DNA of 64,000 bases from Hydrogenimonas sp. GTDB taxonomy: Bacteria > Campylobacterota > Campylobacteria > Campylobacterales > Hydrogenimonadaceae. Shown here one piece after another: positions 30,081 through 54,263 of the stretch. The number at the start of each line of letters is the position of its first letter. Within the stretch, counting starts at the first letter, position 1. Below the pieces are notes generated by a model. The model saw nothing but the letters and a program-made list of their open reading frames with translations, was not told where the DNA came from and ran no database searches. The stretch spans positions 310,001-374,000 of the forward strand of contig AP019005.1 of the NCBI GenBank assembly GCA_003945285.1. Reading direction: 5' to 3'. The translations under genes and the position numbers were made by a program.

Positions 30081-30704
30081 ATGGGCGGTAACGGCACTTT
30101 CATGAAGATCGGTTGGCGCTATATTCTCCCGGTTTGGGGTATAACGCTCTTCGTTCTGATTTTCAGCGATGCTGTTCTGCTCAACCTCTTGCTGATAACC
30201 CTCTCCTTTTTGACGGCATATCTTTTCTACGTGCCGGAGCGTAGAGCCCCCGAGACATCTGAGAGTGCCATTTTGTCACCGGTTGACGGCACCGTTTTGT
30301 CCGTTGCGCAGGAGAGGGGCGGAAGATCTGTTGTGATCAGGAAGAAGATATTCGACGGCAGCGCCGCCGTCCGTGCCCCTGTAGCCGGTGAGCTGCTCGA
30401 AAAAAGTGTCACACACGGCCTCTTTCTCAAGGGTGAAGCTCCCCTGGCTTCAAAGCTGAACGAGAGCGGCACCGTCAGTTGGAAGACCGGTTCTGAAACG
30501 GTAACGATGAAAATAACCTGCGGCCTATACTCGCTCGGCCTGCCTCTGTTCGTTCCCGAAAATGGTACCGATGCAGGTGATCCCATCGCCCACCTTTCCG
30601 ACGGAGTAGTGAAGCTGCTGTTGCCGGCAGAGGTAAAAACGGAGGTCAAACCGGGTGACAGAGTCGTAGGAGGTTACTCACTGCTGGCTTACGGTGCCGG
30701 ATGA
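30081..30704 (+). CDS. Phosphatidylserine decarboxylase-related protein lacking the processing site
   Basis: 207 residues. Two N-terminal membrane segments are followed by a PSD-like beta domain (AILSPVDGTVLSV, RAPVAGELLEKSVTHGLF). The self-cleavage serine motif of real decarboxylases (LGST/GSS type), expected near the C-terminus, is not present; the region reads KPGDRVVGGYSLLAY. It probably does not form the pyruvoyl cofactor and may be non-catalytic or have another role in phospholipid metabolism. It sits between ftsH and pssA and overlaps pssA by 4 bp. C. jejuni has a similarly placed psd-related gene, as I recall. Confidence 0.75.
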   Translation: MGGNGTFMKIGWRYILPVWGITLFVLIFSDAVLLNLLLITLSFLTAYLFYVPERRAPETSESAILSPVDGTVLSVAQERGGRSVVIRKKIFDGSAAVRAPVAGELLEKSVTHGLFLKGEAPLASKLNESGTVSWKTGSETVTMKITCGLYSLGLPLFVPENGTDAGDPIAHLSDGVVKLLLPAEVKTEVKPGDRVVGGYSLLAYGAG

Positions 30705-31426
30705 TGGCTAAAAGAGAGTTTCAGCTGATCTACGTTCTGCCGAATCTCTTTACCGCAGCCTCCATCTTTACCGCTGTAATCGCGATTGTCTCGGCCTTGA
30801 ACGGCAAATTTGAAAAGTCCGCGTGGCTTATATTTCTCTCACTGGTGTTCGACGGCCTGGACGGACGTATCGCCAGGTTGACCCATACTACAAGCAGATT
30901 TGGTGTCGAGTTCGACTCGCTTGCCGATCTCGTCGCTTTCGGCGTAGCGCCGGCGGTTCTTTTCTACCTTTTCGTCGGTCAGGAGTATGGAAGGCTCGGC
31001 ACCCTGATTATGGCCCTTTTCATAATCTTCGGGGCTATAAGGCTTGCAAGATTCAACGTAATGAGTCCCAATACGGACCCGACGGTATTCATAGGTGTGC
31101 CGATACCTGCCGCGGCCATATTCGTATCTGTCTGGATATTGATGTTTGTTCAGTATGAGACTCTTCAGGCTTTCAATGCGGTTTTGCTTGCGGCGGTCCT
31201 CGCGGTCTCACTACTAATGGTAAGCAATATCCGCTACCCGAGCTTCAAAAAGATAAACCTGCAAAAACCCGCCCTGACCAAGACGCTCATAGTGCTGATT
31301 GTCACCGCATCGGCAATATACCTCTACCCGGTCGAAGGATTCGCCCTGATAATTACCATGTATATAGTGTGGGGAGTCGTGAGAGCGCTGCGTACACTTA
31401 TGACAAAAAGGGTGAAGAGAGGCTGA
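30701..31426 (+). CDS. pssA: CDP-diacylglycerol-serine O-phosphatidyltransferase
   Basis: 241 residues with about seven to eight membrane segments. The CDP-alcohol phosphotransferase signature is complete: DGLDGRIAR...GVEFDSLAD, starting near residue 50, supplying the metal-binding aspartates. PssA makes phosphatidylserine, precursor of phosphatidylethanolamine. Start ATG at 30701 or 30704, overlapping the preceding gene. It is the last gene of the cheY-pssA operon; repeats begin about 100 bp downstream. Confidence 0.93.
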   Translation: MMAKREFQLIYVLPNLFTAASIFTAVIAIVSALNGKFEKSAWLIFLSLVFDGLDGRIARLTHTTSRFGVEFDSLADLVAFGVAPAVLFYLFVGQEYGRLGTLIMALFIIFGAIRLARFNVMSPNTDPTVFIGVPIPAAAIFVSVWILMFVQYETLQAFNAVLLAAVLAVSLLMVSNIRYPSFKKINLQKPALTKTLIVLIVTASAIYLYPVEGFALIITMYIVWGVVRALRTLMTKRVKRG

Positions 31427-31459
31427 GTCTAAAGAGAAAAATTATCGACTAATAAAAAT

Positions 31460-31493
31460 AATTCAGCTTTTCAATCTCCCGATATGCTATACT
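31460..31493 (+). promoter_or_regulatory. Candidate promoter upstream of the leuA leader region
   Basis: TATACT at 31488-31493 resembles a sigma-70 -10 box in an AT-rich stretch after pssA. No convincing -35 is seen, which is common in Campylobacterota. If active, its transcript would run through the mobile elements at 31525-32030 before reaching the leader ORF and leuA. Confidence 0.3.
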
Positions 31494-31524
31494 GTCACAA
31501 TTGAAATCGGCTATATGCCGTCAA

Positions 31525-31588
31525 CTGAGCTTACGCAGACTCAGCCGGCGACAGGGAAACTTTCCTTGGCGTACAGATTTTGCGTAAC
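31525..31588 (+). mobile_element. Degenerate miniature relative of the CTGACC-end element
   Basis: Begins CTGAGCTTACGCAG and ends CAGATTTTGCGTAA, close to the terminal repeats of the full elements, but only about 64 bp long and lacking the final GGTCAG. It abuts the left target duplication (ATTGAAA) of the next element. ATTGAAA also occurs at 31500-31506 on its other side. Confidence 0.5.
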
Positions 31589-31698
31589 ATTGAAACTGAC
31601 CTTACGCAAAATTTGTCAGCCCCGGGATTTGAGCGGAAAAATATCGTTTAAAAAACCGCGCTTGCCCGTCAGGGCGCCGGAGGCGTCAGCGGTTTTCA

Positions 31699-31964
31699 GG
31701 GCACCTCTAAAGGCCCCAGGCATCCATAGCTATGAGAGCTTTTGCGCAGACAAGGCGCTTCGACGCAGGACTGGCCAAAGCCAATTCAAGGAGAAGCAAC
31801 GCAGTATGCGCAAAAGCTCTCATAGCCCGGAGGGAAGAGAAATAGAGCATCATCTTCCGCAAAATATCTCCTTGAGTTACCTTAGGGTAGCCCTGTGTCG
31901 ATCTTTTGCGAAATCTGACGCTCTCTTTCTCTTCTATGGGTGCCGGGGGCCTTTAGAGGTGCCC
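31699..31964. mobile_element. Inner element with 19-bp terminal inverted repeats
   Basis: GGGCACCTCTAAAGGCCCC (31699-31717) and its exact complement (31946-31964) bound a 266-bp segment absent from copy A at 38.3 kb. Copy B at 54.1 kb has only a short GGGCACCCC at the matching place, as if a remnant. Right flank TATA and left flank CA. Inside is a long perfect hairpin (31729-31825). No coding potential seen. Confidence 0.7.
31729..31825. repeat. Perfect 20-bp inverted repeat with 57-nt loop
   Basis: GCTATGAGAGCTTTTGCGCA at 31729-31748 is exactly complementary to 31806-31825. The loop contains GGCGCTTCGACGC and AAGGAGAAGCAACGC segments. It may be a third nested unit or the structured core of the inner element. 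Confidence 0.75.
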
Positions 31965-32052
31965 TATAGATATTTTGCAGCGTCCCGCAGGGCAAATCCC
32001 GTTCGGCGTGCAGATTTTGCGTAAGGTCAGATTGAAATAGAAAGGAGAGACA

Positions 32053-32142
32053 ATGCACGGAACCGATACCGGCAGAATAAAAGCTATCAAACATTTGCCG
32101 AAAATCGAGATTAAGAATACTCTCCTATCCCTCCGCCCCTGA
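32053..32142 (+). CDS. Putative leuA leader peptide (29 aa)
   Basis: A short ORF starting ATG CAC GGA, preceded by AAAGGAGAG at good spacing. Its C-terminus reads N-T-L-L-S-L-R-P, with three leucine codons (CTC, CTA, CTC) within four codons just before the TGA, 61 nt upstream of leuA. This is the expected layout of a leucine attenuation leader. A classical terminator hairpin with a T-run is not evident between the ORF and leuA, so regulation could act through translation or the ORF could be fortuitous. The ribosome-binding site begins only 4 bp after the target duplication of mobile element copy C. Confidence 0.55.
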   Translation: MHGTDTGRIKAIKHLPKIEIKNTLLSLRP

Positions 32143-32203
32143 TTTTAGACTATACCGCAAGAGACTGTTTATACAACAACCCTGAAAAATTTAAGGATAT
32201 ACG

Positions 32204-33760
32204 ATGATGAAAGATAAAGAGAGAGTATATATATTCGATACAACGTTAAGAGACGGCGAGCAGAGCCCCGGCGCATCCATGAACACCGAAGAGAAGATCA
32301 AGATCGCCGCACAGCTCCAGAGACTCGGTGTAGATATCATAGAGGCCGGTTTCGCAGCCGCCAGCCCCGGTGATTTCGATGCGATAAAACGCATATGCGA
32401 AGTTGTCGACAAGAGTGTGGTCTGCTCTCTCGCCAGGGCCGTGGAGCGGGATATAGTACTCGCCGGAGAATCCCTCGAAAATGCTAAACATAAACGCATA
32501 CATACATTCATAGCTACGAGCCCCATTCATATGGAGCACAAACTCAAGATGGCCCCGGATGAGGTTATTCGCCGTGCCGTCGAAGCGGTGAAGCTTGCGA
32601 AGAGTTTTACAGACGATGTGGAGTTCAGCTGCGAAGATGCCGGAAGAAGCGAAATGGGATTTCTCAAGGAGATTCTCGATGCCGTTATAGAGGCGGGCGC
32701 GACAACGCTCAATATTCCTGATACTGTCGGCTACAGACTTCCGCAGGAGATGGGCTCGATGATAAAAGAGCTTCATGAACATGTGGGTGAACGGGCGATC
32801 ATATCTGTACACTGCCACAACGATCTCGGGCTTGCGGTGGCAAATTCGCTCTTTAGTGTTATGAATGGAGCGCGACAGGTGGAGTGTACGATAAACGGTC
32901 TAGGTGAACGTGCCGGAAACGCAGCTCTCGAAGAGATTGTTATGGCGATGAGGACACGCTCGGATATATTCGGCAATATAGAGACCGGAATCAATACGAA
33001 AGAGATATATCCGACAAGCCGCCTTGTAGCAGCTATTACCGGCATAGAGCCGCAGCCGAACAAAGCCATAGTCGGGAAGAACGCATTCGCCCACGAAAGC
33101 GGGATTCACCAGGACGGAATGCTCAAGTGCCAGGAGACCTACGAGATAATGAGAGCGGAAGATATCGGTCTCGAGCAGAACCGTCTCGTACTCGGAAAAC
33201 ACTCCGGCCGCCACGCCTTCAAGGATAGGCTCGAGGCTCTCGGTTTCGAACTCACGGCGGAAGAGCTCGACAAGGCGTTCGAGCGTTTCAAGGCGCTTGC
33301 CGACAAGAAGAAAGAGATATTCGATGACGATATCAGGATGCTTATAGCGAGCGAAATAACGAACATTCCGCAGGCGTTCGAACTTGTAGGGCTCCAGATA
33401 GCCGACTGTTCGGCCGGTGTTCCCAGTGCTGCCGTAACGATACGCCATAAAGAGAGGAGCATAACCGATGCCGGAATAGGGGACGGTACAATCGATGCAA
33501 TATTCAAAACCATCGACCGCATAAGCGGACATGCCGGTGTGCTTAAAGACTACAGGGTGGAGGCGGTGAGCCAGGGTAAGGATGCACTTGCGAAAGTTGT
33601 AGTCAACGTACAGTTCGACGGGAGCAAAACGGCCGTCATAGGGCACGGTCTGAGTATAGATACGATGCTCGCCAGCGCGAAAGCCTATATAGGGGCTCTC
33701 AACAGCTACCTTTCGATGCTTCCGTCCGAGTGCAGCATAGAGAGTTGCGAGGGGGTATGA
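32204..33760 (+). CDS. leuA: 2-isopropylmalate synthase
   Basis: 518 residues. The HMGL-like catalytic barrel has [16 protein letters not shown] near residues 10-25 (metal-binding aspartate), [13 protein letters not shown] near 205 with the metal histidines, and [10 protein letters not shown] near 232. HESGIHQDG and [10 protein letters not shown] follow, then the C-terminal allosteric domain (residues about 390-510). It condenses acetyl-CoA with ketoisovalerate in leucine synthesis, normally with feedback inhibition by leucine. AAGGATATAC precedes the ATG. A leucine-rich leader ORF precedes it, and it converges with the TPR gene over a hairpin. Confidence 0.97.
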
Positions 33761-38233: not shown

Positions 38234-38260
38234 TTTCAAGACCTTTGGTTTAGTTGTTCA

Positions 38261-38424
38261 CTGACCTTACGCAAAATCTGCACGCCGAGCGGGATTTGCC
38301 CTGTGGGACGCTGCAAAATATCTAAAAACCGCTGACGCCTTCGGCGCCCTTTCGGGCAAGCGCGGTTTTTTGACGATATTTTTCCGCTCAAGTCCCGGGG
38401 CTGACATATTTTGCGTAAGGTCAG
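38261..38424 (+). mobile_element. CTGACC-end MITE-like element, copy A (164 bp)
   Basis: Bounded by CTGACCTTACGCAAAAT and ATTTTGCGTAAGGTCAG-type ends. The flanks TTGTTCA and TGCTTCA match at 5 of 7 positions, as expected for an old 7-bp duplication. Its interior carries ACCGCTGACGCCTTCGGCGC followed by a GCGCGGTTTTTT hairpin arm. It lacks the inner insertion seen in copy C, so it represents the basic element. Confidence 0.85.
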
Positions 38425-38470
38425 TGCTTCAGATACCGATTCTACACCAATTTAGATAAACGTTGTGTAA

Positions 38471-53915: not shown

Positions 53916-54263
53916 CCCAAATCTCGAAATAGAATAGTTTGAAATCGTTGCGATGCTTATAGTCAGGCGGTTTCGGAAAAATTTGAGGCGTACCCGTCAG
54001 GTGCGTCGACGGTTTTCTAGGAAGTGCATAGCTGTAATGATCGTAATGACTGACCTTGCGCAAAATCTGCACGCCGAGCGGGATTTGCCCTGCGGGACGC
54101 CGCAAAATATCTATAGGGCACCCCTAAAAACCGCTGATGCCTTCGGCGCCCTGACGGGCAAGCGCAGTTTTTTGAACGATATTTTTCCGCTCAAATCCCG
54201 GGGCTGACAAATTTTGCGTAAGGTCAGTTAATGAGTTCTTCTATTTCCAGTTCGAGATTTGGG
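53916..54263. mobile_element. Family-R hairpin-type element interrupted by CTGACC-element copy B
   Basis: Ends are perfect 13-bp inverted repeats (CCCAAATCTCGAA at 53916-53928, complement at 54251-54263), flanked by 5-bp direct repeats TTAAG at 53911-53915 and 54264-54268. Removing the 178-bp insert and one 7-bp duplication leaves 163 bp, exactly the length of the copy at 18870-19032, with which it aligns end to end. Its right edge abuts the stop codon of the pilin gene at 54264. Confidence 0.85.
54050..54227 (+). mobile_element. CTGACC-end MITE-like element, copy B (178 bp), inside a family-R element
   Basis: Ends CTGACCTTGCGCAAAAT and ATTTTGCGTAAGGTCAG; flanks GTAATGA (54043-54049) and TTAATGA (54228-54234) match at 6 of 7. 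The interior matches copy A, except for an extra ATAGGGCACCCCT at the site where copy C carries the 266-bp inner element. The host family-R sequence continues on both sides, proving insertion. Confidence 0.88.

Follow-up and report, generated by a model that had tools for sequence, protein, structure and literature searches.

Organization of the locus

The DNA considered here, referred to as the window, comprises 64,000 nucleotides of the Hydrogenimonas sp. genome (G000:310001-374000), the chromosome of which is assembled as one contig of 2,193,435 bases. Between a gene encoding a CDP-alcohol phosphatidyltransferase (30701-31426; PF01066) and a leuA-like gene (32204-33760) lies a composite in which one MITE, termed here the inner element, interrupts another, termed the outer element. 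Two further copies of the outer element, copies A and B, are found in the same window (Table 1).

Table 1. Positions of the composite, its parts and the other copies of the outer element in the window
Feature	Position	Strand	Remark
Left 5-bp target duplication of the composite, TTGAA	31590..31594	.	Identical to 32032-32036
Whole composite, outer MITE with inner MITE inside, 437 bp	31595..32031	+	Second full copy elsewhere in the genome
Outer element, left part, ending GCGGTTTTCA; hairpin core ACCGCG...AGCGGTTTT	31595..31698	+	Core shared with G013 and G007, both sister species
Left 4-bp target duplication of the inner element, TTCA (TTTA in several other copies)	31695..31698	.	4-bp duplication of the inner family
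Inner element, 266 bp, ends GGGCACCTCTAAA, non-coding	31699..31964	+	Ends common to an IS5-family element
Left 19-bp inverted end of the inner element	31699..31717	+	Pattern search
Right 19-bp inverted end of the inner element	31946..31964	-	Pattern search
Right 4-bp target duplication of the inner element, TATA, one substitution (original presumably TTTA); putative marker of a single insertion	31965..31968	.	
Outer element, right part	31969..32031	+	
Right 5-bp target duplication of the composite, TTGAA	32032..32036	.	Duplication test
Copy A, outer element, empty	38260..38425	-	
Copy B, outer element, scarred, exact 5-bp duplication CATTA	54049..54228	-	

An earlier, sequence-only reading of this DNA had described 266 bp bounded by inverted repeats at this site, and the 19-bp ends are indeed exact on both sides. 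In the window, no further place resembles these ends at up to three mismatches (chance expectation, 0.02). The sole ORF of at least 80 aa running across the inner element (31515-32024) yielded no match in a Pfam search. MITEs are under about 600 bp in size, a description into which the inner element, with its length and its lack of coding capacity, falls.

The outer element

When empty, the outer element is a MITE of about 166 bp, with 18-bp inverted ends (left, ACTGACCTTACGCAAAAT; right, ATTTTGCGTAAGGTCAGA), a 5-bp target duplication and about 40 copies in the chromosome. The 40 two-ended copies considered below are counted without L031, L039, L040 and the diverged relatives near 744936 and 485422. 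An exact 5-bp duplication flanks 15 of these 40, as compared to a mean of 0.67 and a maximum of 6 in 2000 shuffles, and exact duplications of 6 and 4 bp were found at three copies and one copy, respectively. Given that TTGAA stands on both sides of the composite in the window, these 437 bp moved as one unit. A second filled copy, 96% identical to the composite, is found at genome positions 1577437-1577872; the duplication test found no matching flanking duplication there.

Insertion of the outer element can also be seen directly, since a third repeat that is uninterrupted at L019 (TTTCTTTAGTAAATC; genome ~1338420-1338573) is split by the outer element, between TAGTA duplications, at L014 and L020. 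The family to which this repeat belongs (ACTGATGTTACGCAAAGC...GCGTAACGTCAGT) carries the outer element at the same point in both copies, scarred at L014 and empty at L020, which could reflect either two insertions or a single one that was duplicated, the short flank that they share being compatible with both. Nesting at L014 extends to three levels, namely, the third repeat, the outer element and a scar of the inner element.

The hairpin core of the outer element recurs in sister species G013 and G007 with other arms. Across these copies (L085-L111), the species have the core in common but differ in arms and ends, an arrangement resembling a single structural module fitted with different ends.

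The inner element as a mobile unit

The proposal that a second mobile unit lies inside the first is borne out by the inner element occurring alone and generating its own 4-bp duplication. A lone copy, sharing 83% identity, is found in this genome at 571113-571380, with more decayed ones elsewhere, and 11 two-ended lone copies are present in sister species G007. In a search of a genome contigs database with the inner core, the sole match was to a Hydrogenimonas MAG, in a database from which the genome's own records may be excluded. Across 41 two-ended relatives of the inner element, drawn from the genus and the order and including short forms, an exact 4-bp duplication was found at 21 (shuffles: mean 3.75, maximum 11 of 2000), with no excess of 3-bp or 5-bp duplications. 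The commonest of the 21 exact duplications were TTTA (5), TTAA (4) and TAAA (3). IS5-group elements produce duplications of 4 bp.

A search for the ends elsewhere, as the sequence-only reading had advised, showed them not to be confined to one place, the 14-base end (GGGCACCTCTRAAA; at most one mismatch) being found at 40 places in the genome, as compared to one for the reversed-pattern control. Some of these 40 places fall within filled or scarred outer copies, and others lie outside them.

Empty, filled and scarred states of the outer element

Copy A corresponds to an empty site, reading GCGGTTTTTAGATATTTTGC, as had been thought. The short insert in copy B at the same point (GGGGTGCCCTATA), earlier likened to an excision remnant, is related to the inner element, because it contains 7-9 bases from the right of the inner end together with the altered right duplication. 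All three states that had been described are thus represented in this genome, with 24 of the 40 two-ended outer copies being empty, 14 scarred and 2 filled. These assignments combine 32 copies read by a script, L019 classed from a separate comparison and seven copies classed from sequence by eye. Five more scarred copies (L040, L113, L115, L117 and L019b) lie beyond the 40. Nineteen of the 24 empty copies read exactly TTTTTA/GATA, with the remaining five (L010, L028, L038, L130 and L131) being decayed or shortened. In the sister species, where 14 (G013) and 15 (G007) matches to the outer core were listed and nine of each were read, the empty site (GCGGTTTTTAG) is uninterrupted in 9/9 copies from G013 and 9/9 from G007.

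The scars take several forms. Remnants of the left end of the inner element are retained in L004, L005, L006, L027 and L115, remnants of the right end in L014, L015, L021 and L022, and both ends in shortened form in L030 and L129, with the remnant of either end being no longer than about 20 bp in every scar measured. In L034, L035, L114, L036, L117 and L040, the deletion extends into the outer element. Scars retaining the right junction have TATA there, or TATG in the case of L027 and L117; L129 is cut after TAT, and the junction is lost in L005, L006 and L040. In L019b, a decayed right half, the junction reads TTTG, which could mark a separate event or go back to a stage at which the duplication was still TTTA. 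The left duplication in composites reads TTTA or TTCA and the right one TATA, with the two filled copies sharing TTCA and TATA. The inner element is found at the same point and in the same orientation in every filled or scarred copy read.

Identical scars are present at different sites (L005/L006 and L021/L022), pointing to either repeated deletion at the same repeats or movement of scarred copies. A tree of the outer copies is star-like, with filled and scarred copies not grouped (13 changes, as compared to 13.4 in shuffles), and no difference in divergence was found between filled and scarred copies, on the one hand, and empty copies, on the other (P 0.30).

Junctions left by loss of the inner element

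Junction microhomology averaged 2.09 bp over 11 classes, as compared to 0.76 bp when break pairs were drawn at random from the same windows (P 0.0006). Classes were assigned by eye, with L129 placed with L030, L114 with L034/L035 and L113 with L115, whereas a script split L129 and L114 otherwise; L019b was left out of the sample. The L021/L022 scar, for which 5 bp is possible, was counted as having 2 bp of microhomology. For L036, the 4 bp initially scored span one mismatch; as the null counts exact matches only, this junction was recounted strictly, giving a mean of 1.73 bp (P 0.007). The scars of L015 and L115 may be variants, by one base, of those in L021/L022 and L004, respectively, such that the number of separate deletion types lies between about 9 and 12; leaving out these two possible variant classes in addition to counting L036 strictly gave 1.56 bp over nine classes (P 0.03). 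Two of the 11 classes present no microhomology.

The majority of break points are no more than 20 bp from an inner end. On the left, L034/L035, L036 and L117 have lost about 14-43 bp of the outer element as well, and on the right, the L040 deletion continues for about 40 bp beyond the inner element. As single-stranded DNA, the inner element is predicted to fold at -83 kcal/mol (z -12.3). Together, the microhomology and the strong predicted fold fit deletion between short repeats across a palindrome.

Proposed history of the nested elements

We consider it likely that the states described above stem from one insertion of the inner element, followed by spread of the composite and then by multiple losses of the inner element, mostly by slippage. 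Each element exists apart from the other and has its own duplication, the empty site is present in sister species, and the TATA marker is shared. As for the order of events, the inner element, a non-autonomous MITE of 266 bp with IS5-type ends, would have inserted once into one copy of the outer element, at the base of the core hairpin (GCGGTTTTTA/GATATTTTGC, as in the empty copies), duplicating TTTA, after which the right duplication would have mutated from TTTA to TATA. The composite would then have acted as one outer element, moving to other sites with its own 5-bp duplication at each, and at many sites the inner element, being a long palindrome, would later have been deleted, mostly between short direct repeats at or just outside its ends. 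Some scarred forms may have moved again. Replication slippage across a hairpin, the host-driven pattern termed "nearly precise excision" and known from Tn10, would be the simplest deletion route.

The sequence-only reading had held that the inner element targets or repeatedly hits the outer one. This does not fit the single insertion point and the same TTTA-to-TATA substitution seen in filled and scarred copies that keep the junction, L019b apart. Because this altered duplication, as TATA or in decayed form, is shared, one insertion explains the filled and scarred copies. Repeated insertion at the hairpin base as a hot spot would gain from TTTA, which stands at this point of the outer element, being the commonest exact target of the family (5/21), and from the TTTG junction of L019b, but is very unlikely in the face of constant point and orientation, the shared marker and the near identity of the two filled copies, down to their TTCA and TATA duplications. 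Scarcely credible is the converse view, namely, that the 437-bp form is ancestral and that all short forms arose from it by internal deletion. Deletion products are common among outer copies, yet the empty form is present in sister species and the inner element is found alone with 4-bp duplications of its own. Given the star-like tree, the case for a single origin is based on the common position and the TATA marker; the marker could have spread among outer copies by gene conversion, and precise reversion may account for some of the 24 empty copies.

The same nested history could also have ended differently, with a transposase excising the inner element and end joining then leaving the scars as footprints. 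The closeness of most break points to the inner ends, the match of these ends to an IS5-family element and the two junction classes lacking microhomology would all suit such a process. This is nonetheless unlikely, given the short direct repeats at most junctions, the deletions that run well into the outer element on either side and the finding of no PF01609 match in this genome, a search that covered PF01609 alone and bears on present content, past activity being possible. Host slippage following a single insertion thus appears to account better for the deletions than does transposase action.

Relation of the inner element to the IS5 family

In order-mate G219, an IS5-family element with inner-type ends occurs at several sites, seen in pieces on contig ends rather than whole. 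Its left end (GGGCACCTCTAAAAACCC) is found in L182, L184 and L185 and its right end (GGGCACCTCTAAAATCC) in L179, L180, L181 and L183. The transposase pieces match PF05598 and PF01609; against the NCBIfam IS5 model NF033581, one scored 173.6 bits (cut-off, 140) and the other 117.3 bits. At L181 (G219:C37), a Mutator-family transposase gene (PF00872) adjoins about 45 bp of the right end of the IS5-family element, as if that gene had inserted into the element.

When inner-type MITEs were compared with the G219 and G274 pieces, shared stretches were terminal and 12-27 bp long in 160 of 214 match rows. Derivation of the interior of the inner element from the pieces compared found no support, the best interior match being 16 bp (E 0.022), and the true parent may be another element. 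Derivation of the interior from a parent IS by deletion is not required of all MITEs. PF01609 matches were found in 2 of 18 genus genomes; no resident IS5-type transposase was detected in the present genome by the PF01609 search.

The inner family across the order

The 14-base end is found in 74 of 398 genomes of the order Campylobacterales, the 18 genus genomes included, and in 24 of 87 genera, while the reversed-pattern control occurs once in each of 4 of the 398 genomes. Among the places listed, many pairs of ends lie 264-268 bp apart, and other forms are either shorter (48-56 and 110-210 bp) or longer (292 and 350 bp). The 48-56 bp elements L116, L148, L149 and L166 hold little beyond two inner-type ends; exact 4-bp duplications flank L148 and L166 and none flank L116 and L149.

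The inner element is predicted to form an end stem and two long hairpins. Sixteen full-length copies (264-268 bp) from 12 genomes and 6 family codes align end to end. These represent 16 of the 19 full-length copies gathered, with L067 and L146 (extra copies of included genomes) and L169 (of unsure orientation) left out; further full-length copies exist outside the alignment, for example in G007. In the shared fold, 95.0% of cells pair and changes on both sides are seen at 76 of 98 pairs. The covariation score was 0.638, as compared to 0.188 for shuffles and at most 0.138 for slid controls, a large margin, albeit one obtained with a structure predicted from the same alignment and so biased in favor of covariation. 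Templated repair of imperfect palindromes is a source of compensating changes, and such changes are expected both under such repair and under selection on the fold. A comparison of RNA and DNA pairing on the strand on which the structure was chosen gave 78 G-T and 34 A-C cells, and 27 and 26 pairs, respectively. A structured RNA of known family was also considered and set aside, with no Rfam match up to E 1 in window positions 31400-32200 and with the six Rfam matches from four relatives, all to microRNA hairpins, falling below gathering.

It is conceivable, and is offered tentatively, that the inner elements are a mobile family of one order, the length of 264-268 bp and branched fold of which are kept by selection on DNA self-pairing. 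What is conserved across at least six families would then be the fold rather than a transposase gene, and the same fold would ease loss of the element, leaving scars.

Comparison with known systems

Correia elements are linked to an IS5-family element. The inner element resembles bacterial MITEs with IS5-family ends, Correia elements among them, in being non-coding, in having inverted ends and a target duplication and in being present in many copies, and differs from them in its 4-bp A/T-rich duplication, 266-bp length, end (GGGCACCTCTAAA) and an interior unrelated to the IS5-family pieces with which it shares ends. The Correia elements of Neisseria are given as the best-known bacterial MITE (PMC10969869). 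ERIC elements are, like the inner element, palindromic, non-coding, found across related bacterial families and of stable predicted fold, but are 127 bp long with TA at their ends (PMC2229807, PMC10969869), unlike the 264-268 bp, IS5-type ends and branched fold seen here.

Nesting and imprecise loss are each known kinds of event. In the open-licence literature searched, no description was found of the inner element family or of a loss series of one bacterial MITE inside another. In precise and nearly precise excision of Tn10, an element with inverted repeats is lost when the DNA between short direct repeats located at its ends or close to them is deleted. Losses of the inner element are alike in this respect, and differ in forming a natural series of outcomes inside a multi-copy element rather than in a laboratory assay, with the mechanism here being inferred. 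For what seems to be one and the same insertion, empty and filled sites and about a dozen kinds of scarred site coexist in one genome, providing a natural and unusually complete record of how a palindromic insertion is lost in bacteria. Moreover, the inner element marks a structured MITE family spanning many genera of one order, such that one can now ask whether movement requires the fold or whether the fold instead results from imperfect-palindrome repair or benefits the host.

Additional arrangements

Other arrangements involving these elements were noted. Directly upstream of the composite, at window positions 31524-31594, lies a shorter stretch that resembles a repeat and has related ends (ACTGAGCTTACGCAGA ... 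TTTTGCGTAACATTGA), and the outer element seems to have landed beside another small element. L113 (genome 35600-36200) combines an inner-type left end with an outer-type right end, with the left half of the outer element being absent. Finally, at L151 and L152 (G007:C1:430200-430700 and 2053100-2053600), GGGCACCTCTAATACC, in which an inner-type end is joined to the start of the element itself, precedes an outer-core element; the two families may have met on another occasion, leaving these fusions as scars.
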